In this document: piece by piece, positions 10,314-33,198 of the stretch
Layout of the letters: every line of letters starts with the position of its first letter
How positions within the stretch are numbered: the first letter of the stretch is position 1
Source of the DNA: Chloroflexota bacterium
Lineage (GTDB): Bacteria > Chloroflexota > Dehalococcoidia > Lucifugimonadales > UBA3495
NCBI GenBank assembly: GCA_002721995.1
Contig: PBMF01000033.1
Span: 1-33,370, forward strand
Length of the DNA stretch: 33,370 bases
Direction: 5' to 3'
The notes under the pieces: model-generated
Told to the model about the DNA's origin: nothing
The model's input: the letters and a program-made list of their open reading frames with translations, nothing else
Databases searched by the model: none
Made by a program: the position numbers and the translations under genes

Positions 10314-10408
10314 TTTCCCCCGTCCTAACCTTCCCCTGGAACAGGGAAGGGGTTTGATCAGATTCAGATAGCACACCGATTTTAGTGTCGCACTTGGGGT
10401 GCGTCAAT

Positions 10409-10436
10409 TTGGGCGTGGCTGGCCTCCGGTTATGGT
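10409..10436 (+). promoter_or_regulatory. Candidate sigma70 promoter for the TPP enzyme
   Basis: TTGGGC (10409-10414), 16 bases, TATGGT (10431-10436). If used, the transcript would start near 10443, downstream of the possible GTG at 10399, which supports the later TTG start of the gene. A hairpin (arms 10329-10335 and 10344-10350) lies on the other side, in the leader of the divergent enoyl-CoA hydratase gene. Confidence 0.35.
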
Positions 10437-10530
10437 AAACTTCCAAGCGATCAATTCCCGCTGGAAACGGGGACACCCAGGAGTGCCTAAAACTACGAAC
10501 ATCCACCCCGGTGCTTTGGAGGTAACTGGA

Positions 10531-12225
10531 TTGGCTCAGAAAATGAAGGCAGGAGACGCCGTAATCGAGATGCTGCGGCAGGAGGGAGTCTCCCACATGT
10601 TCGGGATAGTCGGTTCGTCCTTCCTTGACATCCTCGACCCCCTCTACGACCGTGACGACATCCAGTTCATCGGCGTGCGCCACGAACAGGGCGCGGCCCT
10701 GATGGCCGACGGCTACAGCCGCATCTCCGGCAAGCCCAGCGTATGCCTGGTCACCAACGGCCCCGGCGTCCTGAACCTGACCTACGGCATCGGCTCGGCC
10801 TACGTGGCCCACTCGCCGGTGGTCGTGCTGGCGCCTTCCGCTTCCCGCAGCCACCAGCACCGCGACTCCACCCAGGAATTCGACCAGGTCGCGCTGTTCA
10901 AGCCCATCACCAAGGCATCCTTCGCCATCAACAAGATCGAACGCCTGCCCGACGCCCTGCGCCACGCCTTCCGCGTCGCCACCTCGGGCAAGATGGGCCC
11001 GGTGATGATCGACATCCCCAGGGACCTGTTGCCCGGCGCCGAGGTGGAGCTGGACCTGCTGACTCCCGACGCCTACCGCCCGGGACAGACCCGCTCCCGG
11101 GGCGACCAGGGACTCATCGACAAGGCCGCATACGTACTGTCCGCCGCCCAGCGCCCCGTGATTCTGGCTGGCGGCGGCGTGCAGTGGAGCGCGGCCGGTG
11201 AAGAGGTCTGCCGTATGGCTGAACTGACCGGCGCGGCCATCGTGACCTCCTACGGGCGCGCCGACGCCGTCCCCAACGACCACCCCAACTACCTGGGCCA
11301 CCTGGGCCGGTTGGGTTCTGCCGAAGGAATCGAAGCCATCCGTCAGGCCGACACCATCCTGGCCGTGGGCACCCGCCTCAGTCAGTCGACGACTTTCTAT
11401 GACAACCGGTTCATCCCGGCGGACGCCAAGATCGTCCAGATCGAGATCGACCCCGAGGAGATTGGCCGCAACTACCCCGTGACCGTGGGTATCGAAGGCG
11501 ACGCCAAGGCGGTCATGGAAGGCCTTCTGGAAAAGGTCCGGGAGCAGGAGCCCAAGCCCAACCAACAATGGGTGACGGAGATCGGCGACTGGGCAGCCCG
11601 CCGCACCGCCAGGCTGGACGACGAGGGCAAGGACAACAGCAATCCCATCAAGCCCCAGCGGGCCTACGCCGAACTGCGGAAGGTCATGCCCAGGGACGCC
11701 ATCATCGCCCTGGACGCCGGACTGGCCCCCAACTATGGCCAGGACCGTCTCAATTACTACGAGCCCCGCAGCCTGATCACATCCCTGGACCTGGGCGGTC
11801 TGGGCTTCAGCTTTCCCGCCGCCATCGGGGCCAAGTTCGCCGCGCCGGACCGGCCGGTGATCAACTTCAACGGCGATGGCGGTTTCCTGTTCAACGCCCA
11901 GGAGTTCTCCACGGCGGTCCACTACAACCTGCCCCTGGTGACGGTGGTGATGAACAACGGCATCTGGGGCTCGGAGAAGGCCTACCAGCGTTACGCCTTC
12001 GACGAACGCTACGTGGGCGCCGACGTGACCAACCCCCGCTACGACAAGTACGCGGAGATTTTCGGCGGCGCCGGGTTCTACGTGGAGGGGCCCGAGGACA
12101 TCGGCAATGCCCTGACCGAGGCCCTGAACTGCGGCAAGCCCAGCATCATCGAGATTCCCACGGACCCCGATGAGATGCCCCGGCCGGCCCGGTTGGCAGA
12201 GGTCCAAGCCCCGCCCCAATCCTAA
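10531..12225 (+). CDS. Thiamine-pyrophosphate enzyme of the acetolactate synthase superfamily (substrate unresolved)
   Basis: A complete three-domain TPP enzyme. The Pyr domain has the cofactor-activating glutamate E52 in FIGVRHEQGAALMADGY. The central FAD/CoA-type domain has RPVILAGGGVQW. The PP domain has the GDGGFLFN...MNNG TPP/Mg motif. The TTG start at 10531 is chosen for GGAGG at 10518-10522, giving 564 residues; the frame is open from 10399. The C-terminal NNGIWGSEKAYQ and GRYDKY-like segments recall sulfoacetaldehyde acetyltransferase, oxalyl-CoA decarboxylase and 2-hydroxyacyl-CoA lyase rather than biosynthetic IlvB. The Tyr-Glu pair of oxalyl-CoA decarboxylase is Thr-Gln here (STQEFDQ), which argues against that enzyme. 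No small regulatory subunit follows. A carboligase or decarboxylase is certain; the substrate is not. Confidence 0.82.
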   Translation: MAQKMKAGDAVIEMLRQEGVSHMFGIVGSSFLDILDPLYDRDDIQFIGVRHEQGAALMADGYSRISGKPSVCLVTNGPGVLNLTYGIGSAYVAHSPVVVLAPSASRSHQHRDSTQEFDQVALFKPITKASFAINKIERLPDALRHAFRVATSGKMGPVMIDIPRDLLPGAEVELDLLTPDAYRPGQTRSRGDQGLIDKAAYVLSAAQRPVILAGGGVQWSAAGEEVCRMAELTGAAIVTSYGRADAVPNDHPNYLGHLGRLGSAEGIEAIRQADTILAVGTRLSQSTTFYDNRFIPADAKIVQIEIDPEEIGRNYPVTVGIEGDAKAVMEGLLEKVREQEPKPNQQWVTEIGDWAARRTARLDDEGKDNSNPIKPQRAYAELRKVMPRDAIIALDAGLAPNYGQDRLNYYEPRSLITSLDLGGLGFSFPAAIGAKFAAPDRPVINFNGDGGFLFNAQEFSTAVHYNLPLVTVVMNNGIWGSEKAYQRYAFDERYVGADVTNPRYDKYAEIFGGAGFYVEGPEDIGNALTEALNCGKPSIIEIPTDPDEMPRPARLAEVQAPPQS

Positions 12226-16425: not shown

Positions 16426-16527
16426 TCGCAGAATTGGTTGACGGCCCAAGCACCCGTTGCTAGGATTTCCCCAATCCCCGGGTGGAGGCGGTCTCCACCA
16501 AATCCCAAACAACAAGGACTATTTGCC

Positions 16528-18837
16528 ATGACTACCACAGAGCGGACAGAGGCCCAAGGCGCACTGCGCGGAATGCAGGTGCTGGAATTCGGCCAGTACA
16601 TCCCCGGCCCCATGCTGGGCATGCTGCTCTCCGACCAGGGGGCGGACGTGATCAAGGTGGAGCGTCCCGGAGGCGACCCCGCCCGCAGTGAACCGGCCTT
16701 CGCCACCTGGAACCGGGGCAAACGCTCGGTGGTCCTAGACCTGAAGACTCCGGAAGGGCAGGCCTCCGCCCAAGCGCTGGCCAAGAAGGCCGACATCGTC
16801 ATCGAGAACTACCGGCCCGGCGTGGCCGACCGCCTGGGCATCGGCTACGACGCTCTGTCCAAAGAGAACCCCGGCCTGCTCTACTGCTCCATACCCGGCT
16901 TCGGCGAGGACAGTTCCCACCGGAACGAGCGGGGCTGGGAGAGCATCGTCGCCGCATCCACAGGCGTCTATCAGCATGTAGACGGGGCCGATGAACCCCT
17001 GTTCCTGCCCCTGCCCGCAGCCAGCACCTTCGCCGCCCTGGTGTCCGCTGTATCGGTGACCATGGCCGCAGTGGCCCGGGACCGCACCGGCAAGGGACAG
17101 CGCATCGAAGTGCCCATGCACAGCGCCATGTTCTCGGCCATCGGCAGGCACCTGGTCAAGCTATACGACATCAACCCGCCGGACCTTTTCAACCTGCCCA
17201 GAAACGTCATGTCCCACCAGTACCAGTGCGCCGACGGCCGGTATTTCCAGTCCCACGGTATGTACCAGCGGTTCGTAAGCCAGTTTATGACCGCCGCCAA
17301 CCGTCCCGAGTGGGTCGACGAGCTGCAGGCCCTCTACGGCGAGGACGTCCCCGACGAGACCATCGCCATGTGGAAGGACCGGTTCGAGAAGATGTACGCC
17401 GAGCGCACTGCCCTGGAATGGGAGGACGCCATCGCCGAGGCCAAGGGCGTGGGCACCATCTGCAAGACCATCGAGGAATGGCTGGTCCATGAGCACGCCA
17501 TCGCCGGCAAGATGGTCCGTGAGATTGACGACGCCCAGTACGGAAAGATGAAGCAGCCCGGCGTCCAGGTACGCCTGCGGGGCACCCCCGGCGAGATCCA
17601 GGGACGCGCTCCCAAACTGGGTGAGCACACCGACGAGATACTGGCGGAGATCAAGAACGGCTCCGCACCCCTGGCCGCGTCCAAGGCCGGCGGCGAAAGC
17701 ATCATGCACGCCCTGGAGGGCCTCAAGGTCATCGACCTCTGCATCGTGCTGGCCGGTCCCACCTGCGGCCGGACCCTGGGCGAATTCGGCGCCGAGGTCA
17801 TCAAGATCGACGACCCGGCCCGCCCCTACGACGTCGCCGGCAACACCGACGTGAACCGGGGCAAGCGCAGCATCCAGATCAACCTGAAGACCAAAGAGGG
17901 ACTCGAAGTCTTCTACAAGCTGCTGGAGACCGCCGACGTGGTGGTGGAGAACAACCGCAAAAGCAGCCTGGCCCGCCTGGGCATCAGCTACGAGGAGATG
18001 AGCAAGCGCAAGCCCGACATCATCCACGCTTCGCTGAACGCCTTCGGTTACGACGGCCCCTGGAGTGAGCGGCCCGGCTGGGAACAATTGGCCCAGGCGA
18101 CCAGCGGCATCCAGGTGCGGCGCGGCGGCCGGGATTCGGCCCCCCAGTTACTGCCCTACCCCATGAATGACTACGGCACCGGCCTCATGGGCGCCTACGC
18201 GGTGGCCCTGGCCGTCCACGAGCGCAACCGCACCGGCAAAGGGCAGCGGGTGGACAGCGGTCTGGCCCTCACCGCCGGCCTGCTGCAGTCGCCCTACTTC
18301 CTGGACTACGAGGGCTACGTCCGGGACGAGCCCGAGGGCCTGGGCGTCCGTGGTTTCTCAGCCAAGTCCCGGCTCTACAAGGCCGCCGACGGCTGGATGT
18401 TCCTCCACTGTCCGGACGATGAATCCTGGGCCAACCTGGCTAAGCTTTCAGAGTTCTCCAGCGTCGCCGCCAATGGCAATGACGAGGCCCTGACGGAATC
18501 TCTGACCGAGATTCTGGCCGGCAAGGGCCGGGATGAATGGGCCAACTTAATCAATCCCACGGGCGTCAGCGTCATCGCCAACCGCGAGGTCCATCATTTC
18601 CGAGACGACCCCGATATCCGCAAGGCGGGACTCATAGTGGAGCGGGACCATCCCGGCATGGGCAGAGCCGACCATCTGGGCTCGGTCGCCCGTCTGTCCG
18701 AGACTCCCATGCGGGTGGGCCGGCCGACGCCCCTCCTTGGCGCCGAGACCGATGAGATCCTCACCGAGCACGGCTACACCGGGGAGCAGATCGAAGCCAT
18801 GAAACTGTCCGGGGCTGTGGTCCAGCACCAGTCCTAA
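16528..18837 (+). CDS. Tandem (double-domain) class III CaiB/BaiF CoA-transferase
   Basis: A 769-residue protein with two complete family III CoA-transferase domains. The first covers about residues 12-390 (MQVLEFGQYIPGPMLG, NRGKRSVVLDLK, GFGED). The second covers about 392-769 (LKVIDLCIVLAGPTCGR, NRGKRSIQINLK, GYDGPW). Such enzymes move CoA between carboxylic acids through an aspartyl anhydride. The catalytic Asp is present in the second domain (D548 in PMNDYGTG), but the aligned position of the first is Ser (S166 in PAASTFAA). Only the C-terminal half should therefore be catalytic. The start is the ATG at 16528 (MTTTERTEAQG); the upstream extension to 16438 is not family-like. The acid substrates are unknown. 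Confidence 0.9.
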   Translation: MTTTERTEAQGALRGMQVLEFGQYIPGPMLGMLLSDQGADVIKVERPGGDPARSEPAFATWNRGKRSVVLDLKTPEGQASAQALAKKADIVIENYRPGVADRLGIGYDALSKENPGLLYCSIPGFGEDSSHRNERGWESIVAASTGVYQHVDGADEPLFLPLPAASTFAALVSAVSVTMAAVARDRTGKGQRIEVPMHSAMFSAIGRHLVKLYDINPPDLFNLPRNVMSHQYQCADGRYFQSHGMYQRFVSQFMTAANRPEWVDELQALYGEDVPDETIAMWKDRFEKMYAERTALEWEDAIAEAKGVGTICKTIEEWLVHEHAIAGKMVREIDDAQYGKMKQPGVQVRLRGTPGEIQGRAPKLGEHTDEILAEIKNGSAPLAASKAGGESIMHALEGLKVIDLCIVLAGPTCGRTLGEFGAEVIKIDDPARPYDVAGNTDVNRGKRSIQINLKTKEGLEVFYKLLETADVVVENNRKSSLARLGISYEEMSKRKPDIIHASLNAFGYDGPWSERPGWEQLAQATSGIQVRRGGRDSAPQLLPYPMNDYGTGLMGAYAVALAVHERNRTGKGQRVDSGLALTAGLLQSPYFLDYEGYVRDEPEGLGVRGFSAKSRLYKAADGWMFLHCPDDESWANLAKLSEFSSVAANGNDEALTESLTEILAGKGRDEWANLINPTGVSVIANREVHHFRDDPDIRKAGLIVERDHPGMGRADHLGSVARLSETPMRVGRPTPLLGAETDEILTEHGYTGEQIEAMKLSGAVVQHQS

Positions 18838-19449: not shown

Positions 19450-21654
19450 TTGCTCCGCATCTACAACACCCTGGCAAAACGGGTTGAAGAGATTCACCCA
19501 ACCACGCCGGGGCTCATCCAAATGTACACCTGCGGCCCCACCGTGTACCGCGACGCCCACATCGGCAACATGCGAACCTATCTCATGGCCGATTGGGTAC
19601 GCCGCTCTTTGGTGCACAGCGGGCTGGAAGTAAAACACATAAAGAACATCACCGACGTGGGCCACATGCGCCAGGAACTGGTGGAGGCCGGCGGCGACAA
19701 GATGATCATGGCGGCCCTGGCCGAAGGCAAGACGATTCAGGAAATCGCGTCCATGTATTCGGAGCGGTTCCACAGGGACGAGGCCCGTCTCAACATCCTT
19801 GAGGCCCACGAATTCCCCTGGGCCAGCCACCACATCCCAGAGATGCTGACCATGGTGGAGACGTTGGTTAAGAACGGCCACGCCTATGAGAAGGGCGGCA
19901 ACCTCTATTTCGACGTTCCCTCCTTCCAGGACTACGGCAAGCTCTCCCGCAACACCGGCGCCGACCTGCTGGAAGGCGTGCGATCCGAAGCCGACCCCCT
20001 GAAACGCGACCCCAGGGATTTCACGCTGTGGAAGGCCGCCGAAGAGGGCCGGGACGTTAAGTGGGACAGCCCGTGGGGCCCCGGGTTCCCCGGCTGGCAC
20101 ATCGAGTGCTCGGCCATGGCGTCCAAGTACCTGGGAGAGAGTTTCGACATCCACACCGGGGGCATCGACAACGTATTCCCCCACCATGAAGATGAGATTG
20201 CCCAAAGCGAGGCCGCCTTTGGGCATCCCCACGTGAACTACTGGGTCCACGGGCAGCATCTGCTGGCCGACGGCGCCAAGATGGCCAAATCGGCGGGTAA
20301 CGTCTTCCTCATCGAAGAACTCATCGAAAGGGGTTTCTCGCCCCTTTCCTTCCGCTACCTGTGCATGACCATCATGTACCGGCACCGGATGAATTTCACT
20401 TTCACCTCGCTGAAAGCCGCGGAGAAAGCCTTGACCGGGCTGCGCCAGAGGATATGGCTCTGGAGCCAGGAGCCGGAGGTGAACAACCACGGGACAGAGG
20501 TCGAAGAGTACCGGCAACGGTTCTGGAACACGGTGGAAGACGATCTGGACCTGCCCGGCGCTGTGGCCCTGACCTGGGAGATGGTGCGCTCTGAACTGCC
20601 TGGACGCGCTAAGATGGACCTGCTTCTGGAGTTTGATCAGATGTTCGGGCTGGACCTCGACAGGGCTCCGGCGGAACTATCCCCGGCGGCAGAAGTTTCC
20701 GCCGCCCTGAAGACCAGGGCCGGCCACCGGGAAAAGTCAGACTACGCCACCGCCGATTCACTGAGAGGCCAACTCGCCTCGGATGGATATCTGGTGGAAG
20801 ACACCCTCAACGGGACCCGCGCCCGCCCCAAGACTCCGTTGGAACTGAAGCATGAGAAGTGGGCCTCGGTGTCTTCAGCGCGCGAGGTCGAGTCCTATCT
20901 GGACCGGCCTGCCGATCTGGACTTCACCTTCATCCTCAACGCCTATGGGTACCCCAGCGACGTGAAACGGTGTATCGAAGGCATGCTGAACCACACCGGA
21001 GACCATTCGGTGGAAGCCATAGTTATTGACAACGGCTCAACCGACGGCACCGGGGAACTGCTGGAGGAGATGCAGGAGCAGCACCCAGCCCTCCGGGTCA
21101 TCCACTGCGACCACGTCATCGGCGACGCCGCCAGCAAGAACATCGGCCTGATGCAAAGCCGGGGCCGTAACATAGTGGTATTGGATGGGTCCGCTGAGAT
21201 CACCGGCAACATCCTGGACCCGGTCTCGCGCACCCTTGAAGACCCCACGGTGGGGATCTTCGGACCCTGGGGCCTCAGCACCCCCGACATGCAGCACTTC
21301 CACGAAGAAGTTGACGAGGGCGATGCCGACGCCATGCAGGCCTACTGTATGGCCTTCCGCCGCGAAACGGTGAACACCGTGGGTCTGATGCGGGAATGCT
21401 TCCGGTTCTACCGCAATCTGGATATCGACTACTGTTTCCAGTTCAAAGACAAGGGGTTCCGGGTGGTCGCCGACTCCTCTCTGCCCCTGGTCCGGCATGA
21501 ACACCGCCAGTGGACGGAATTGGACGATAATCAGCGGGATGAGCTGAGCCGAAAGAACTTTGGCCGGTTCTTGAAGCGCTGGGGTAACCGTCCTGACCTG
21601 CTCCTGGCGGCCGACGCTGTGGGATTCGAGAACCAGGCCCGCTATCATCACTAG
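19450..21654 (+). CDS. cysS: Cysteinyl-tRNA synthetase fused to a family 2 glycosyltransferase domain
   Basis: Residues 1-460 form a full class I CysRS: C28 in YTCGPTVY, HIGN (37-40), C220 in HIECSAM, H245/E249 in PHHEDE (zinc site), KMAKS (277-281) and the C-terminal EDTLNGTR. After a linker, residues 491-700 look like a GT-A glycosyltransferase 2 domain: FTFILNAYGYPSDVKRCIEGM, IDNGSTDGTGELL (527-539), DAASKNIGLMQSRGRNIVVLDGS and a later CMAFRRETVNTVGL. The usual DxD metal site reads LDGS (578-581), so catalysis by the second domain is uncertain. The reading frame is continuous, with no stop and no good internal start. The TTG at 19450 has GAGG upstream and gives the conserved N-terminus. 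The total of 734 residues is well above the usual 460-500. Confidence 0.93.
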   Translation: MLRIYNTLAKRVEEIHPTTPGLIQMYTCGPTVYRDAHIGNMRTYLMADWVRRSLVHSGLEVKHIKNITDVGHMRQELVEAGGDKMIMAALAEGKTIQEIASMYSERFHRDEARLNILEAHEFPWASHHIPEMLTMVETLVKNGHAYEKGGNLYFDVPSFQDYGKLSRNTGADLLEGVRSEADPLKRDPRDFTLWKAAEEGRDVKWDSPWGPGFPGWHIECSAMASKYLGESFDIHTGGIDNVFPHHEDEIAQSEAAFGHPHVNYWVHGQHLLADGAKMAKSAGNVFLIEELIERGFSPLSFRYLCMTIMYRHRMNFTFTSLKAAEKALTGLRQRIWLWSQEPEVNNHGTEVEEYRQRFWNTVEDDLDLPGAVALTWEMVRSELPGRAKMDLLLEFDQMFGLDLDRAPAELSPAAEVSAALKTRAGHREKSDYATADSLRGQLASDGYLVEDTLNGTRARPKTPLELKHEKWASVSSAREVESYLDRPADLDFTFILNAYGYPSDVKRCIEGMLNHTGDHSVEAIVIDNGSTDGTGELLEEMQEQHPALRVIHCDHVIGDAASKNIGLMQSRGRNIVVLDGSAEITGNILDPVSRTLEDPTVGIFGPWGLSTPDMQHFHEEVDEGDADAMQAYCMAFRRETVNTVGLMRECFRFYRNLDIDYCFQFKDKGFRVVADSSLPLVRHEHRQWTELDDNQRDELSRKNFGRFLKRWGNRPDLLLAADAVGFENQARYHH

Positions 21655-27113: not shown

Positions 27114-28343
27114 CTAGACCCGGGACATGGACTCTGCCATTACCTCTTCCGAGACAGCAATCTCCGTTGCCTCCGGGGCCTTGGCCATCCGAGCCAGCAG
27201 CGGATTGACCAGTTTCAGCACTCCGCCCAGGGTGGGGTGGCCCATGATCTTACCAATCATGGAACTGTGCCAGTCGAAGGATACCTCCGGGGAGTTGGCC
27301 AGCTCAGCGACGAAACCGTTCTTGCTGGCCTGCTGCACCAGAGAGCTGATGTGGCTGTCGCCCAAATACTCAAAGAGCCGTCGGGCCGAATAACCCACCT
27401 CCAGTTCTTTGGACAGCAGGGCCTTCCATTGTTTCTGGTAGGCGCTCAGTTGGGTGGCGGAGAGCCGGTTTCCTTGCATGGCCTCGTCCAGGGCGCCGGC
27501 GGCGAACTCGCTGGCCATCAGCGAGTAGAATATGCCGCCCCCAGTGGTGGGTTTCACCTGGCCGGCCGCATCACCAACAACTAGGACGCGGTCCATGTAG
27601 GTCTTGCGCAGGGGCCGGAGGGGGATGCCCCAGCAGGTAGCCTTGGAAGCCGTGCCCTTGACGGTGCCCTCTGCCATACGGGCCGCTATGAATTTGTCAA
27701 AACGCTCCAAGGCGTTCTTTCGCACCAGAAGTCCGGCCAGGGCAAAACCGGGCTGGGTCGGCACCAACCAGGCGAAGAATCCCGGCGCAACATCACGGCC
27801 AACGTAGACTTCCACTTCTTCCAGACCTTCGGTTTCAACCAACGCCTGCACACCCACTACGTAGTCCGACGCCTCTCCCAGACCCAGTTGCCGGTTCAGT
27901 TGGGAGCCGAAACCCGCCGCCAGGACCAGGGCCCTTGCTTCCAGGGTCTCATCGTTGGTTACGACTGTGACACGGTCTTTACGCTGTTCCACCTGGGCTA
28001 CCCGCTGCCCCAGCAGATATTGGGCGCCGGCTTCCCTCGCACGGTCGGCGAAGGATGAAACATAGGCCACGCGGTTGACCACGCGGGCGACGGGACGGGG
28101 AGTCTCGAACCTGATGCCCTCTAACGAAGGGGCAACCACCCGGGCCGAATTGATCTCACGGTAGACCAGGGAGGGGTCTATGGGGTAGCGGCGGAAACAC
28201 TCCTCGCCGACCAGTCCGGTACAGAGCTTATCGCCGATATTTTCACGGGAGTCGATGACGGTAACGCCGTAGCCCTTCTTCGCCAGGGTTAGGGCGGCGT
28301 TATTGCCGGCAGGGCCGGCCCCCACCACGATCACATCATCCAA
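27114..28343 (-). CDS. Geranylgeranyl-reductase-family FAD-dependent oxidoreductase
   Basis: A 409-residue flavoprotein. The N-terminal FAD motif is VIVVGAGPAGNNAALTLAKKG. DKLCTGLVG is the conserved Cys-Gly block of geranylgeranyl reductases. Further on are ALVLAAGFGSQLNRQLGL, FAWLVPTQPGFALAGLL, and DRVLVVGDAAGQVKPTTGGGIFYSLMAS, the second FAD contact. Archaeal homologues saturate the isoprenoid chains of lipids; bacterial ones also act on chlorophyll phytyl chains and quinones. The substrate here is not known; a menaquinone or lipid side chain is plausible. The TTG start at 28343 has GAGGTG upstream. It is divergent from the GntR regulator, with an intervening palindrome cluster. Confidence 0.85.
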   Translation of the reverse strand: MDDVIVVGAGPAGNNAALTLAKKGYGVTVIDSRENIGDKLCTGLVGEECFRRYPIDPSLVYREINSARVVAPSLEGIRFETPRPVARVVNRVAYVSSFADRAREAGAQYLLGQRVAQVEQRKDRVTVVTNDETLEARALVLAAGFGSQLNRQLGLGEASDYVVGVQALVETEGLEEVEVYVGRDVAPGFFAWLVPTQPGFALAGLLVRKNALERFDKFIAARMAEGTVKGTASKATCWGIPLRPLRKTYMDRVLVVGDAAGQVKPTTGGGIFYSLMASEFAAGALDEAMQGNRLSATQLSAYQKQWKALLSKELEVGYSARRLFEYLGDSHISSLVQQASKNGFVAELANSPEVSFDWHSSMIGKIMGHPTLGGVLKLVNPLLARMAKAPEATEIAVSEEVMAESMSRV

Positions 28344-28395
28344 ATTGAGCGCACCTCGGTAGCCCCGCTGCTCGGGGCTGGGGTTTCACGCCGAG

Positions 28396-28401
28396 ATTAT
28401 A
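28396..28401 (-). promoter_or_regulatory. Possible -10 box of the divergent flavoprotein gene
   Basis: TATAAT on the minus strand, about 50 bases before the TTG start. No good -35 box is present at the right spacing, so this is only a candidate. Confidence 0.3.
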
Positions 28402-28426
28402 TACCCCGCAGAGGGCCTCAGCTAGG

Positions 28427-28460
28427 TGGTTAGTCCAACCAATTGGACCGTTATTGTCCA
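28427..28460. promoter_or_regulatory. Cluster of GTCCA half-sites in alternating orientation (possible operator)
   Basis: GTCCA lies at 28433-28437, TGGAC at 28444-28448 and GTCCA at 28456-28460, with centres 11 and 12 bases apart, close to one helical turn. The first pair forms a perfect 6-base inverted repeat GTCCAA/TTGGAC with a 4-base centre. It lies between the divergent flavoprotein and GntR genes, upstream of the GntR promoter. Confidence 0.4.
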
Positions 28461-28529
28461 CTTAACGTCCCTTCGGACGGCTTGCGGGTTGCCATAACAC
28501 CGGCAGAATACCGGCCGGCCCGCCACGCC

Positions 28530-28557
28530 TTGACAACGCCTGGCTGGGGTGTATAAT
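28530..28557 (+). promoter_or_regulatory. Consensus sigma70 promoter of the GntR regulator
   Basis: TTGACA (28530-28535), 16 bases, TATAAT (28552-28557): both boxes match the consensus exactly. The transcript would start near 28564, about 47 bases before the regulator start codon. Confidence 0.8.
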
Positions 28558-28572
28558 CCTGCCGAACCCGAG

Positions 28573-28587
28573 ATTGGTCAGACCAAT
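28573..28587. promoter_or_regulatory. GntR/FadR-type palindromic operator
   Basis: ATTGGTCAGACCAAT is a perfect 7+1+7 palindrome. It has the TGGTNNNACCA core known for FadR-subfamily GntR regulators such as PdhR. It begins about 9 bases after the expected start of transcription and 24 bases before the regulator start codon, so bound protein would block transcription: autoregulation is likely. Confidence 0.7.
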
Positions 28588-28610
28588 TTCGTTCCCAATT
28601 ATGTTCAACG

Positions 28611-29327
28611 ATGATTCAGTCCGAATTACATAACCTCCAGGGGCAAAGACTCCACGAGTCCATCGTCCAGAGGTTCCACGACCTGATCCAGAACGGGACC
28701 CTGGAGCACGGCTCCAAGCTGCCGCCGGAACGGGTATTGGCCGAACAGTTAAAGGTCGGCCGCAGTTCGGTGCGGGAAGCCATCCGGACGCTGGAACTGC
28801 AGGGCCTGGCGGTGAGCAAACAGGGCTCCGGGACGTTCATCAACACCCAGAGCCTGGATGCCGTCACGTCCCTTATGACTTCCGGACTGGGAGCGGGCGA
28901 GGCACAGCTCAGAGACATATTCGAGGTCCGTCACCTGCTGGAGCCCCAGTTGGCCGCTCTGGCCGCACAGAAAGCCACGCCAGAAGACGTGGAGCGTTTG
29001 GCGGCCATCTTGGAAGAGCAGCAGCGCCAGATCATGGAGGGCGAGACCGGAGTGGACGCCGACACCAAATTCCACTTCGCCCTGGCCACCGCCACCCACA
29101 ACGCGGCTCTGGTCAAGGTGGTCAGCGCCGTGGAAGACGTGCTGCGTCAGTCCTGCGACCAGTCGCTGCAGCAGCCCGGCAGGCCCGAAAGGTCCCTGGA
29201 GTCCCACCATCAGATCTTGGAGATGGTGCGGGCTGGAGACCACCGGGGCGCCCGGGAAGCCATGGAGCATCACCTGACCGCGGTTGAGCCGTCGGCGGTC
29301 TTTCCGTCCACGGCCGTTGGCGAATAA
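28611..29327 (+). CDS. FadR/GntR family transcriptional regulator (FCD domain)
   Basis: A 238-residue repressor-type protein. The N-terminal winged helix-turn-helix is SKLPPERVLAEQLKVGRSSVREAIRTLELQGL followed by QGSGTFI. The C-terminal all-helical FCD domain is seen in DIFEVRHLLEPQLAALAA, DTKFHFALATATHNAAL (metal-site Asp and His) and SLESHHQILEMVRAGDHRGAREAMEHHL (the two further histidines). FCD regulators bind small organic acids, often with a metal. It is preceded by a consensus promoter and a matching palindromic operator. The oxidoreductase genes begin about 100 bases downstream, so its natural ligand may be their substrate. No strong Shine-Dalgarno precedes the ATG at 28611. Confidence 0.92.
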   Translation: MIQSELHNLQGQRLHESIVQRFHDLIQNGTLEHGSKLPPERVLAEQLKVGRSSVREAIRTLELQGLAVSKQGSGTFINTQSLDAVTSLMTSGLGAGEAQLRDIFEVRHLLEPQLAALAAQKATPEDVERLAAILEEQQRQIMEGETGVDADTKFHFALATATHNAALVKVVSAVEDVLRQSCDQSLQQPGRPERSLESHHQILEMVRAGDHRGAREAMEHHLTAVEPSAVFPSTAVGE

Positions 29328-29344
29328 CCGAACAGGGTATCGAA

Positions 29345-29369
29345 ACGTCCCGGCCCCAGGGCCAGACGT
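29345..29369. repeat. Hairpin between gntR and the oxidoreductase operon
   Basis: ACGTC (29345-29349) pairs with GACGT (29365-29369), and inside it GGCC (52-55) pairs with GGCC (60-63). There is no T-run, so it is not a typical terminator. It could be an RNA processing or stabilising hairpin that sets the ratio of regulator to enzyme. Confidence 0.45.
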
Positions 29370-29426
29370 CAAAGCGATAGAGCAGTAGATAAATCTCACC
29401 GGAACTAAAAGCTGAGGAGGAGACCT

Positions 29427-30578
29427 ATGGCCACCCGAGCTGTTGAGGTGGTGTACCGGGGCATATTCCAGCGGACTCTGGCCCGGAACATCGTCCGAAA
29501 CATAGTTTTCGCCGCACGTAAAGACGGCAAGATCGGCACCGCCTTTGGCCGGTACAGCGACTCTCCCGAGAGGAACGGAATCCCGGCCAAGCAATTCGCC
29601 GTGGTCGCCGACACCGCCCTGGAACTGGAAGAGAGCCTGGCCGTCTACGAAGCCACTTCCGTGGACGTCACCATCAACCTGGACGACACCATGTGCAAGG
29701 GCCTGGAGTCCTGGGCCTGGTACGGATTGCAGCCCATCAACGAGCTGACCAAGCCCGGCGGCACGCTGATCGTGACCTCCCGCCAGGACGCCGATTCTCT
29801 GATAGAGGATATCCATCAGAAGGACACCCCCTACGACCTGGCCATCATCCCCAGCACCGTGAGCTTCTCCGGTCTATGGGTCTACAAGGATGACCATACC
29901 GACATGCGGGTGCTGGGCACTCTATGCAAGGTCTGTCCAGATCTGGTGAGCATGGAAGCCATGATGGAGACCATCCAGGAGCAGACGGCCAACGACACCA
30001 AGGCCGCCTCCGCCCAGCGGGCCTTCGACCGGACCACCACCCGCCTCGTGGAGCCCGGTGAGGGCAACACCGAGACCCCCTTCGGTTTCGACATGCCCGG
30101 CTGGAAGAACATGGAAGAGGGCCTGGTCATCCGTGCCGTGCCGGAAGGCAGCGGTTTCCGCGGCGGAGACGAGGGTTACACCCCCGGCCGCAGCGATGTG
30201 TTCAAGAAGTGGAGCACCCGGTCCATGCGTCCGGTCATCAACTTCGACACCTGCATCAAGTGCACCCTCTGCTGGCTCCAGTGCCCGGACACCTGCTTCG
30301 ACGTGACCCCCGATGGTCTCTATGACGCCAACATGGAAGCGTGCTGCGGCTGCGGTGTGTGCGAATCGGTCTGCCCGGTCCCCGACTGCGTGACCATGGT
30401 GGGCGAGCCGGAGTTCAACGACAACGCCAGCCAGTACGACATGTGGATGGCCGACAAAGAGGGCTACAACAAGTGGATGACCGAACTGGTCGATAAGACT
30501 AAAGCCGAGACCAGGAGCCACGGTTTCCACCATGTCGGCGGCTACGCTGAAGAGATCAATGCCACGGAGGACGCCTAA
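29427..30578 (+). CDS. 2-oxoacid:ferredoxin oxidoreductase, fused gamma-delta subunit (probable oxalate oxidoreductase)
   Basis: A 383-residue fusion. Residues 1-200 are the PorG/POR_C gamma domain (VEVVYRGIFQRTLARNIV, LEESLAVYEATSVDVTINLDD). The C-terminal part is a ferredoxin-like delta domain with two 4Fe-4S motifs: C276-C279-C282-C286 (CIKCTLCWLQCP) and C306-C309-C312-C316 (within CCGCGVCESVCP). It would pass electrons from the TPP/Fe-S core to external ferredoxin. The ATG at 29427 has GAGGAGGAG upstream. It overlaps the alpha gene by one base (TAATG). From memory, oxalate oxidoreductase of Moorella also has a fused gamma-delta subunit and the same gene order; ordinary four-subunit PorGDAB keeps them separate. 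Confidence 0.88.
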   Translation: MATRAVEVVYRGIFQRTLARNIVRNIVFAARKDGKIGTAFGRYSDSPERNGIPAKQFAVVADTALELEESLAVYEATSVDVTINLDDTMCKGLESWAWYGLQPINELTKPGGTLIVTSRQDADSLIEDIHQKDTPYDLAIIPSTVSFSGLWVYKDDHTDMRVLGTLCKVCPDLVSMEAMMETIQEQTANDTKAASAQRAFDRTTTRLVEPGEGNTETPFGFDMPGWKNMEEGLVIRAVPEGSGFRGGDEGYTPGRSDVFKKWSTRSMRPVINFDTCIKCTLCWLQCPDTCFDVTPDGLYDANMEACCGCGVCESVCPVPDCVTMVGEPEFNDNASQYDMWMADKEGYNKWMTELVDKTKAETRSHGFHHVGGYAEEINATEDA

Positions 30579-31804
30579 TGGCCACCGCACAGTCAGGGCT
30601 CTTTCAGGAGTCCAAAGAGGAATTAATCAGCGGCAGTGAGGCCGTGGGCATCGCCTGCGCCCTGGCCGACGTTGACGTCATCACCGCCTATCCCATCCGA
30701 CCCTACGACACGGTGATGCAGTACGTGTCCCGTCTCAAGGCCGACGGCGCCTTCGATTGCGACTTCATTGTGGCCGAGAGCGAACACTCCCAGTTTGAGA
30801 TTGTGAAGCACGCCTCCGCCGTGGGCGCCCGGACCTTCTCCGGCTCCAGTGGTGTGGGCTGGTTCTACGCCTTTGAGGCCATCACCGTCACCGCCGGGCT
30901 GCGCATGCCCGTTGTCGCCATGGTGGGCAACCGGGCTCTCGACGACCCCGGCGCCTTCGGTGTTGAACACAACGACGCAATGGCCGTCCGCGACCTGGGC
31001 TGGCACCTGTACTGGGTCGCCACCGCCCAGGAAGCCCTGGATACGGCCCTGCTGGCCTGGAAGGTGGCCGAAGACCCCCGGGTCCTGCTGCCCTTCGCCC
31101 TCAGCTGCGACGGGTCTTTCCTGACCCACTCCCAGGCCATCGTGCAGGTGCCCTCCCAGGAGCAGGTCAGCAAGTTCCTGCCCAACTACACCCGGGGCGA
31201 CCTGCAACTGCATCCGGACAACCCCATCACCATCGCCCCCCAGGTGAACGAGGACTGGCTGATGGAGATCCGGCGCCAGACTGACGAGGCCATGCGCCGG
31301 ACCCACGATGTCATAGTCGAGGCCTACGACGAGTTCAAAGAGGTGTTCGGCCGGGGCGACCCCAGCCCGTTCATCGAAGAGTACATGACCGAGGACGCCG
31401 AGATCCTGCTGGTGGGAATGGGCACCCTGGCCATGCCGACCAGGGTCGCCGTCCGCCGTATGCGTGAGGCCGGCAAGAAGGTCGGGTTCGTGAGGATTAA
31501 GTTCTTCCGGCCCTTCGCCACCGAGGAGATACAGAACGCTCTGAAGGGCGCCAAGGCCGTGGCGGTCGTCGACCGTGACTACTCCTACGGCTCCCCCCAA
31601 TTCGGCGGCGTGCTCTTCCAGGAGTTGCGTTCGGCCCTCTATCCCCTGCCGGAGCGGCCCTTGATGTTGAACTTCATCGCCGGGCTGGGCGGCCGGGAAG
31701 TCAAAGTTACCGACGTAGATGAGATGGTTGAGACCACTCAAAAAGCCATCGACACTGGTAAAATCGAACAGACCACCACCTGGGTCTCCGTAAGGGAGGA
31801 GTAA
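30578..31804 (+). CDS. 2-oxoacid:ferredoxin oxidoreductase alpha subunit (probable oxalate oxidoreductase)
   Basis: A 408-residue alpha subunit holding the Pyr-type domain (1-240) and the transketolase C-like domain (about 290-400). SGSEAVGIACALADVDVITAYPIRP shows the substrate-site motif YPIRP with R41 where pyruvate enzymes have Thr (YPITP). The catalytic-type Glu lies in VAESEHSQFE (E67-E74). The loop GNRALDDPGAF has R119, D122 and F127. Subtracting 10 gives 31, 109, 112 and 117, the numbers I recall for the oxalate-binding Arg and the switch-loop residues of Moorella oxalate oxidoreductase. The proposed reaction is oxalate + CoA-independent TPP chemistry to 2 CO2 with reduced ferredoxin. 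Another small 2-oxoacid is possible. Confidence 0.85.
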   Translation: MATAQSGLFQESKEELISGSEAVGIACALADVDVITAYPIRPYDTVMQYVSRLKADGAFDCDFIVAESEHSQFEIVKHASAVGARTFSGSSGVGWFYAFEAITVTAGLRMPVVAMVGNRALDDPGAFGVEHNDAMAVRDLGWHLYWVATAQEALDTALLAWKVAEDPRVLLPFALSCDGSFLTHSQAIVQVPSQEQVSKFLPNYTRGDLQLHPDNPITIAPQVNEDWLMEIRRQTDEAMRRTHDVIVEAYDEFKEVFGRGDPSPFIEEYMTEDAEILLVGMGTLAMPTRVAVRRMREAGKKVGFVRIKFFRPFATEEIQNALKGAKAVAVVDRDYSYGSPQFGGVLFQELRSALYPLPERPLMLNFIAGLGGREVKVTDVDEMVETTQKAIDTGKIEQTTTWVSVREE

Positions 31805-31806
31805 AC

Positions 31807-32802
31807 ATGGCAACCGTGCAAGACCTTCCCCCCATCAGGGGAGTCAAAGATATACCCCTGGAAGAGTTCTATACCTCGGGTCACCGGACCTGTCAGGGCT
31901 GCGAGTCGGCCCTGGTCATGCGGCTGATGATCAAAGCCGCCGGCCAGCGCACCATCGTGCTGGGCAGCACTGGCTGCATGTACGTGGCCAACACCACCTA
32001 CTACAGCACTCCGTGGGTAGTGCCGTGGATGCACACCCAGCTGGGTTCGGCCGGTTCCGGCGCCATCGGCACCGCAGCGGGCCTGTCTTCCATGATGCGC
32101 AAGGGCAAGATGCAGAGCGAGCCCATCAATGTCATCGCCTTCTGCGGCGACGGCGGCGGTGTGGACATGGGTCTCTCCGCCATATCGGCGGCTTTGCAGC
32201 ACGAGGAGTACAACCTGCTCATCGTCTGCTATGACAATGAGTCCTACGCCAACACCGACATCCAGTCTTCGGGCAGCACGCCCTGGGGCGCCCACACCAC
32301 GTTCAGCCCTCCGGGTAAAGAGACCCGGATCATGAACACCAAGTGGAAGAAGAACATGGCCCCCATGATGGCGGTGGGCCACCCGGATATGAAGTACGTA
32401 GCCACGGCCTGCGCGTCCTACGGTCTGGACTTCAACAACAAGGTGCGCCGCGCCCTGACCGTGGGCGGACCCACCTTCCTCCACTGCTTCGACCCCTGCC
32501 CCAAGGGCTGGGACTACGATCCCAAGTACTCCCACGAGTTGGGGATGCTGGCCATCGAGACCGGTGTGTGGATCCAGTATGAGGTCACCGAAGGTGAACT
32601 GATGCTGAACGGTCCCAGCCGGGCCATCGCCAAGGGCATCCGCAAGCGGAAGCCCGTGGAAGAGTACCTGATGCGCCAGGGCCGGTTCGCCCACTTCACC
32701 CCGGAAGACATCAAGCACTTCCAGGACAAGGTGGACGAGCAATGGGAGACGTGGTGGATACCGGGCCTGGTGCCCATCACCCCCGGCCAAGACGACGACT
32801 GA
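31807..32802 (+). CDS. 2-oxoacid:ferredoxin oxidoreductase beta subunit (TPP-binding; probable oxalate oxidoreductase)
   Basis: A 331-residue beta subunit that binds TPP and the proximal 4Fe-4S cluster. The cluster ligands expected are C29 and C32 (RTCQGCES), C57 (STGCMYV) and C202 (ATACASYG). The TPP/Mg motif is FCGDGGGVDMGLSAISAALQ followed by YDNESYANTDIQSSGSTP. Together with the delta subunit this gives three 4Fe-4S clusters per protomer, as in PFOR and oxalate oxidoreductase. It starts 2 bases after the alpha stop with GGAGGAG, so the three genes are one operon. A strong terminator follows. Confidence 0.9.
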   Translation: MATVQDLPPIRGVKDIPLEEFYTSGHRTCQGCESALVMRLMIKAAGQRTIVLGSTGCMYVANTTYYSTPWVVPWMHTQLGSAGSGAIGTAAGLSSMMRKGKMQSEPINVIAFCGDGGGVDMGLSAISAALQHEEYNLLIVCYDNESYANTDIQSSGSTPWGAHTTFSPPGKETRIMNTKWKKNMAPMMAVGHPDMKYVATACASYGLDFNNKVRRALTVGGPTFLHCFDPCPKGWDYDPKYSHELGMLAIETGVWIQYEVTEGELMLNGPSRAIAKGIRKRKPVEEYLMRQGRFAHFTPEDIKHFQDKVDEQWETWWIPGLVPITPGQDDD

Positions 32803-32858
32803 GCTTGCCGCTCGCCGCGTGGCAATTACCTTCGGCCGCGAAGCTAGTCACAAAAAGA

Positions 32859-32886
32859 GGCCCCGACCTGGTCGGGGCCGTTTTTT
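32859..32886 (+). terminator. Strong Rho-independent terminator of the oxidoreductase operon
   Basis: GGCCCCGAC (32859-32867), loop CTG, GTCGGGGCC (32871-32879), then G and six T (32881-32886). A run of A precedes it, so it may also act for the opposite-strand higA gene. Confidence 0.93.
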
Positions 32887-32892
32887 GTTCGC

Positions 32893-33198
32893 TTACTGTT
32901 GTTTGGAGAGTTGTTTTACTTCTTTTTCCAGTCTGTCGCCCAGGCGGTCTTTCTCCACTTCAAGGTCGTACCTGGTTTGCAGGTTGAGCCAGAAGCGCTC
33001 GGACGTCCCGAAATAACGGGACAGTCTGAGCGACGTGTCCGCTGTGATGGCTCGATCACAGTGGACTATCTGGTTGATACGCCGTGGGTGTACGCCGATA
33101 TCCTTGGCCAGACGGTATTGGCTTATCGACCATGGTGCCATGAACTCTTCCAGTAATACTTCGCCGGGGTGTACTGGTGGCAGTTTTTCAGTCTTCAT
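32893..33198 (-). CDS. higA: HigA-type antitoxin (XRE family)
   Basis: A 101-residue HTH antitoxin. The start PPVHPGEVLLEEFMAP is the HigA signature, followed by the helix-turn-helix ISQYRLAKDIGVHPRRINQIV and the block DTSLRLSRYFGTSERFWLNLQTRYDLE. The charged C-terminal tail is typical. It neutralises the upstream HigB toxin and normally represses its own operon. The start ATG at 33198 follows the toxin stop by 9 bases on the same strand. Confidence 0.93.
   Translation of the reverse strand: MKTEKLPPVHPGEVLLEEFMAPWSISQYRLAKDIGVHPRRINQIVHCDRAITADTSLRLSRYFGTSERFWLNLQTRYDLEVEKDRLGDRLEKEVKQLSKQQ

Follow-up and report, generated by a model that had tools for sequence, protein, structure and literature searches.

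A regulated operon in a Chloroflexota genome probably encodes an oxalate:ferredoxin oxidoreductase of a clade sister to that of Moorella

A four-gene operon in a Chloroflexota genome raises the question of whether oxalate oxidoreductase (OOR), an enzyme studied in an acetogen, in which it feeds the Wood-Ljungdahl pathway, also occurs in bacteria with other metabolisms, and what it would do there. One survey of oxalate degradation put OOR aside for want of information (PMC8062136), and another reports oxc genes and mentions no oxidoreductase (PMC10192776). The operon lies on contig PBMF01000033.1 of assembly GCA_002721995.1 (2.57 Mb in 50 contigs), and the stretch of DNA analyzed, here referred to as “the window,” comprises positions 1-33370 of this 88759-base contig. 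An earlier note, made from the sequence alone, had read positions 28530-32886 as a regulated operon for an OOR-like enzyme. Here, we determined by computation the gene content, homology, trees, conserved cofactor residues, promoter, operator, terminator, and neighbors of the locus. We put at roughly 0.78 the probability of the reading that best explains the locus as a whole, namely that its enzyme genes code for an oxalate:ferredoxin oxidoreductase from a separate clade, the sister of the OOR of Moorella thermoacetica.

Operon layout and subunit homology

Positions 28530-32879 of the + strand form one self-contained transcription unit, with a promoter, an operator, four genes, and a terminator.

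28530-28557, + strand: sigma-70 promoter, TTGACA-16-TATAAT, with 12 of 12 consensus bases
28574-28586, no strand assigned: putative palindromic operator TTGGTCAGACCAA, beginning 17 nucleotides (nt) past the -10 box; probable GntR binding site
28611-29327, + strand: FCD-type GntR regulator gene, 238 amino acids, with Pfam GntR and FCD domains
29427-30578, + strand: gamma-delta fusion subunit, 383 amino acids, with two [4Fe-4S] clusters; best PDB match, OOR delta
30578-31804, + strand: alpha subunit, 408 amino acids, with YPIRP and RALDDPGAF; placed by the 5c4i_A match, signature table, and tree
31807-32802, + strand: beta subunit, 331 amino acids, with the thiamine pyrophosphate (TPP) site and the proximal [4Fe-4S] cluster; placed by the 5c4i_C match and tree
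32859-32879, + strand: intrinsic terminator from a sequence scan, a 9-bp stem followed by a T run

Because these elements fill 28530-32879, with the promoter at one end and the terminator at the other, the limits drawn in the earlier note fit a real unit. Its gene order of gamma-delta fusion, alpha, and beta also stands, with all open reading frames on the + strand at the places given, and is presumably the order in Moorella as well. The enzyme genes almost abut: the gamma-delta stop codon shares its final base with the start of alpha. The Pfam domains of the operon products are GntR and FCD, POR_N and PFOR_II, TPP_enzyme_C, and a two-cluster ferredoxin domain.

Among solved proteins, alpha best matches the Moorella OOR chain 5c4i_A (333 bits, against 223 bits for the Methanosarcina pyruvate enzyme 9bt4) and is 43% identical to the M. 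thermoacetica OOR alpha subunit. Beta best matches 5c4i_C of the same enzyme (298 bits; 9bt4 is next at 198), gamma-delta best matches Moorella OOR delta (78 bits; 47 for 9bt4), and the OOR models of NCBIfam are top scoring for all three subunits. The three [4Fe-4S] sites and the TPP motif expected of OOR are present, with one site belonging to beta and the other two to delta: the cluster cysteines of gamma-delta are kept in 78-79 of 79 rows, and those of beta (C29, C32, C57, and C231) are conserved along with the TPP motif GDG...N144 across ∼78 loci. Pfam detects only the ferredoxin domain in gamma-delta; however, the fusion is real because its predicted model fits OOR 5exe_E over both domains (277 residues within 1-332, Z 27.0), with pyruvate-enzyme gamma chains next best (Z 20.8). 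A plasmid search for the enzyme returned pyruvate-type enzymes only, the best at 35%.

Active-site signature and phylogeny

The pyruvate:ferredoxin oxidoreductases (Methanosarcina acetivorans 9bt4; Moorella 6cin) share the fold, cofactors, and general chemistry of the window enzyme, from which they differ in their YPITP motif, another switch loop, their use of coenzyme A (CoA), and a separate branch in the tree. If the enzyme were instead an ordinary oxidoreductase for pyruvate or another 2-oxoacid, with a chance resemblance to OOR, part of the homology described above would be accounted for: the archaeal PorA model scores close behind the OOR model on alpha (354 versus 372 bits), and the alpha fold, with Z values of 50.8 to OOR and 48.4 to the pyruvate enzyme, does not separate the types and was dropped as a discriminator. 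The active site and the trees do separate them.

As the earlier note had claimed, alpha carries YPIRP (with R41) in place of YPITP and a RALDDPGAF loop, and R41, R119, D122, and F127 align with R31, R109, D112, and F117 of Moorella OOR at a constant offset of 10. One of the four, R119, does not distinguish the enzyme, since pyruvate-type alpha subunits share this Arg; in our signature survey of alpha sequences, the positions that separate the two types are R41, D122, G125, and F127. YPIRPY (in a few cases FPIRPY) and the loop R-x-[LV]-D-x-P-G-x-F are confined to OOR-type rows in this survey, whereas pyruvate-type rows have YPITP or FPIGP (T or G at the Arg31 column), another loop, and the same Arg at 109. 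Asp112 presumably has a mechanistic role in the Moorella enzyme. A scan of 84,980 species genomes, for which the loop and not YPIRP served as the pattern, yielded 258 encoding loci, the best 80 of which were read, and the YPIRP Arg is R in 81 of 81 rows comprising the window and these 80 related loci. YPIRP has been described as a unique OOR motif that binds oxalate (PMC5020499).

In an alpha tree of 67 rows, from which the YPIRP and loop columns had been removed, sequences resembling that of the window (window-type) and those of Moorella type form one clade (100/99), with the pyruvate-type rows on the other side. The beta tree recovers the same three groups and concurs in the pyruvate-type split (100/98). 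The OOR clade divides into a branch of Moorella with two Chloroflexota sequences at 56-57% identity (100/100) and a branch that takes in every window-type row (100/99). The second branch always has Ala at the Moorella Asp116 site, an insertion in gamma in which W96 and W98 are conserved, and an extended delta tail. The identification of an OOR-like enzyme is thereby supported: of the two outcomes that the earlier note had named as refuting it, an alpha subunit inside the pyruvate or 2-oxoglutarate enzymes and a failure of the Arg and Asp to align, neither was obtained. Its class is refined: the enzyme belongs to a clade that is sister to Moorella OOR and should be named as such instead of plainly as OOR, and it probably catalyzes the same reaction. 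On the tree and the signature positions we reject identity as a pyruvate enzyme; given also LDDPGAF in place of a pyruvate-type loop, the gamma-delta fusion layout, and the distinct PorA-like copies (30-39% identity) present in several relatives, we consider it highly improbable.

The window enzyme shares with Moorella OOR (PDB 5c4i, 5exd, and 5exe) its three subunits, YPIRP, equivalents of Arg109, Asp112, and Phe117, TPP, and the three [4Fe-4S] sites, and it differs from it in the Ala for Asp116, the gamma insertion, and ∼50-60 extra C-terminal residues of gamma-delta. Phenylglyoxylate dehydrogenase (PadG/PadI), of the same superfamily, was left out of the tree; its model scores 272 bits on alpha, 100 below the OOR model.

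Two further groups of loci were recorded. Two Chloroflexota genomes that do not belong to the class of the window contain Moorella-type OOR operons (locus L160, 7001-10206; locus L161, 6964-10164), with alpha subunits 56-57% identical to that of Moorella, and both genomes carry acetyl-CoA synthase. A separate PorA-like family in which FPIGPSDEV replaces YPITP, 33-35% identical to the window alpha, was found in several genomes of the same order and family (L108-L111 and L113).

Distribution and hosts

The nearest relatives belong to the SAR202 cluster/Dehalococcoidia, with alpha up to 93% identical, which agrees with the Chloroflexota origin proposed in the earlier note. Within the SAR202-type family to which the window belongs, 44 of 50 genomes encode an alpha subunit at ∼78-93% identity (a few are cut by contig ends); in the remaining families of the order, 8 of 49 genomes encode one at 69-76%. 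Hosts of the clade among the loci read include SAR202/Dehalococcoidia, Alpha-, Beta-, and Gammaproteobacteria, Acidobacteria, Armatimonadetes, Myxococcota, and others, although some of these labels may be wrong because most of the genomes are metagenome assembled. Among Acidobacteria the clade occurs sporadically (4 of 247 genomes). Wherever contigs allow, the genes for gamma-delta, alpha, and beta follow one another in this order in all loci read. Two Acidobacteria genomes each have two window-type alpha genes, ∼62-65% identical to that of the window (G590, loci L172 and L176; G638, loci L174 and L175 as listed).

Marker genes were compared in 30 bearer genomes, 28 of window type and 2 of Moorella type. 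Heme-copper oxidase is present in 27 of the 28 window-type bearers, and acetyl-CoA synthase in only 2 of the 28 but in both Moorella-type bearers; in the window's genome the oxidase is present and acetyl-CoA synthase was not found. The extension of the OOR type beyond acetogens, anticipated in the earlier note, is thus supported: unlike the acetogen that hosts Moorella OOR, most bearers of the clade have heme-copper oxidase and no acetyl-CoA synthase. These marker genes suggest a split between acetogen-type and aerobe-type OOR. What is new is a separate clade with mainly aerobic hosts, a dedicated operator, and a wide spread; searches of open-licence literature for OOR in Chloroflexi or oxalate in SAR202 found no report of the clade, a partial basis for novelty.

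Neighboring genes and the substrate

In nine loci, assigned to Acidobacteria and of Myxococcota type, a gene for a major facilitator superfamily transporter lies directly 3' of beta, at 34-128 nt on the same strand. All nine products score 450-523 bits to the oxalate/formate antiporter model TIGR04259 (cut-off 335), and a tenth copy (549 bits) lies 2.4 kb downstream of the operon in an alphaproteobacterium. In six Acidobacteria genomes (3.2-7.9 Mb) the post-beta gene is the sole TIGR04259 transporter, and in none of these six was an oxalyl-CoA decarboxylase found over the cut-off; as the genomes are related, these are not six independent events. Other bearers have tripartite tricarboxylate transporter genes near the operon. 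With these antiporter genes beside beta in relatives as the best functional evidence, oxalate is very probably the substrate. The suggestion in the earlier note of oxalate as an electron and energy source is strengthened by the antiporters as far as the substrate goes; as an energy source in this organism, oxalate is unproven because the organism's own genome is without an antiporter above the cut-off.

An oxalyl-CoA decarboxylase/formyl-CoA transferase pathway also removes oxalate with a TPP enzyme, but it needs CoA, makes formate, and has unrelated subunits. This canonical route was rejected for the window's genome, in which no protein of the pathway scored over its cut-off. Elsewhere in the window, a fused protein of 799 amino acids (16438-18834, + strand) has two class III (CaiB-type) CoA-transferase domains and scores below all named cut-offs, formyl-CoA transferase included. 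A TPP enzyme gene (10399-12222, + strand) has a product like sulfoacetaldehyde acetyltransferase and acetolactate synthase, under every cut-off among the matches listed, and 15 other Chloroflexota loci have homologues of it close to the OOR-type operon. A TenA-type thiamine salvage gene is near the TPP-dependent operon in 21 Chloroflexota loci (e.g., L057, 11417-12139, - strand).

About 0.9 kb past the operon, on the same strand and beyond the window (33714-34811), is a gene for a flavin mononucleotide (FMN) 2-hydroxyacid oxidase like lactate and glycolate oxidases, and such a gene is near the operon in most Chloroflexota loci. Oxalate could therefore have two sources, uptake and formation inside the cell from glycolate or glyoxylate. 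In Chloroflexota the same chemistry might then serve detoxification or salvage of this internal oxalate rather than uptake-based oxalotrophy, a role with which the missing antiporter in the window's genome and its relatives would be consistent. However, the operon adjoins transporters in other phyla, and glycolate and glyoxylate are only candidate substrates of the oxidase; we hold this role to be a real possibility, at somewhat less than even odds. Between the operon and the oxidase gene lies a gene for a HigA-type antitoxin (32893-33198, - strand; 107 bits, cut-off 47.7).

Several observations weigh against an oxalate-specific enzyme in this clade. All three subunits miss the NCBIfam OOR equivalog cut-offs (alpha, 372 of 500 bits; beta, 357 of 590; delta, 98 of 230), and those for alpha and delta are reached by one Moorella-type relative and not by window-type sequences. 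A paper on archaeal relatives, a secondary source, gives Arg31 and Asp116 as the bait-and-switch residues of Moorella OOR and names Asp116 as mechanistically important (PMC5020499), yet the equivalent of Asp116 is Ala126 in the window and Ala in all 80 related loci, staying Asp in Moorella and its two close relatives. Because this residue is replaced, the switch may work differently in window-type enzymes. An antiporter above the cut-off is absent from the window's genome and from 49 relatives; moreover, an oxalate/formate exchanger does not pair naturally with an enzyme whose products do not include formate, and a family name is not proof of cargo. Finally, two cultured Dehalococcoidia (Tepidiforma), whose carriage of the operon was not checked, do not use oxalate.

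An OOR-derived enzyme that accepts a different small acid in the same arginine pocket (glyoxylate, mesoxalate, or tartronate, for example) would fit a switch loop that departs from that of Moorella by an Asp for Pro113 as well as by the Ala, and would fit the new gamma insertion and the FMN 2-hydroxyacid oxidase beside the Chloroflexota copies. It fits poorly with the placement of an oxalate/formate antiporter directly after beta in the Acidobacteria and Myxococcota-type loci, as the sole copy and with no oxalyl-CoA decarboxylase over the cut-off in six genomes, and we regard it as unlikely.

Regulation and proposed mechanism

The FCD-type GntR regulator that the earlier note placed beside the enzyme genes is confirmed by Pfam (GntR, 69 bits; FCD, 106 bits; both over cut-off), and gntR beside the operon is conserved among relatives, usually in Chloroflexota, Armatimonadetes, and Acidobacteria and not in the Proteobacteria read. 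PdhR and LldR likewise have GntR and FCD domains; the window regulator differs in standing by a different operon and in scoring far below the NCBIfam cut-offs for both. The promoter is the only promoter-like site in 28340-33000, where 0.7 would be expected by chance at a looser threshold. The operator at 28574-28586 is an addition to the earlier account, and 0.01 chance matches to its 11-bp core are expected in the window. Of the 39 related loci with a gntR gene, 26 have the sequence TGGTNNNACCA at most 200 nt upstream of it; those 450 kb contain 30 copies of the sequence in all, 26 of them in this position. The operator resembles the TGGT-N3-ACCA style of PdhR and LldR. A wider GntR regulon was considered and rejected: the three further exact matches to the operator in this genome are next to unrelated genes, and a reversed control pattern is similarly frequent.

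From these features we infer the substrate, electron route, inducer, and direction of regulation as follows. The alpha residues R41 and R119 would hold oxalate next to TPP, where it would be oxidized to CO2 without CoA. Electrons would reach ferredoxin by way of three [4Fe-4S] clusters, the one of beta and the two of delta, and, in mostly aerobic hosts, would probably go to reduced nicotinamide adenine dinucleotide phosphate (NADPH) or the respiratory chain rather than to acetogenesis. This route is suggested by an FprA/adrenodoxin-reductase-type enzyme (401 bits to FprA), a ferredoxin reductase type, near the operon in eight Proteobacteria loci. The regulator is probably a repressor that acts from the operator just downstream of the promoter, plausibly by blocking RNA polymerase because the operator begins 17 nt after the -10 box, and oxalate or a related acid would release it. 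FCD relatives sense lactate, pyruvate, and glycolate, and our naming of the inducer is a guess by analogy with them.

One other gene of the window has an unusual fusion: a 734-amino-acid frame at 19450-21651 (+ strand) joins a cysteinyl-tRNA synthetase catalytic domain (326 bits) to a family 2 glycosyltransferase domain (49 bits, residues 495-603).

Implications

We somewhat favor the view that these loci represent a second, unnamed OOR clade in oxygen-respiring bacteria, in which oxalate electrons would pass through ferredoxin to NADPH and respiration and the enzyme would use a modified switch loop without Asp116. This would be a CoA-free route in SAR202-type marine Chloroflexota and several soil phyla, missed by surveys based on oxc and frc. 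The clade offers a natural test of the role of Asp116 and raises the question of how such an iron-sulfur enzyme works in aerobes. If the assignment is true, an enzyme that is near-universal in a marine Chloroflexota family and scattered in Proteobacteria, Acidobacteria, and Armatimonadetes would be an overlooked oxalate sink in sea and soil.

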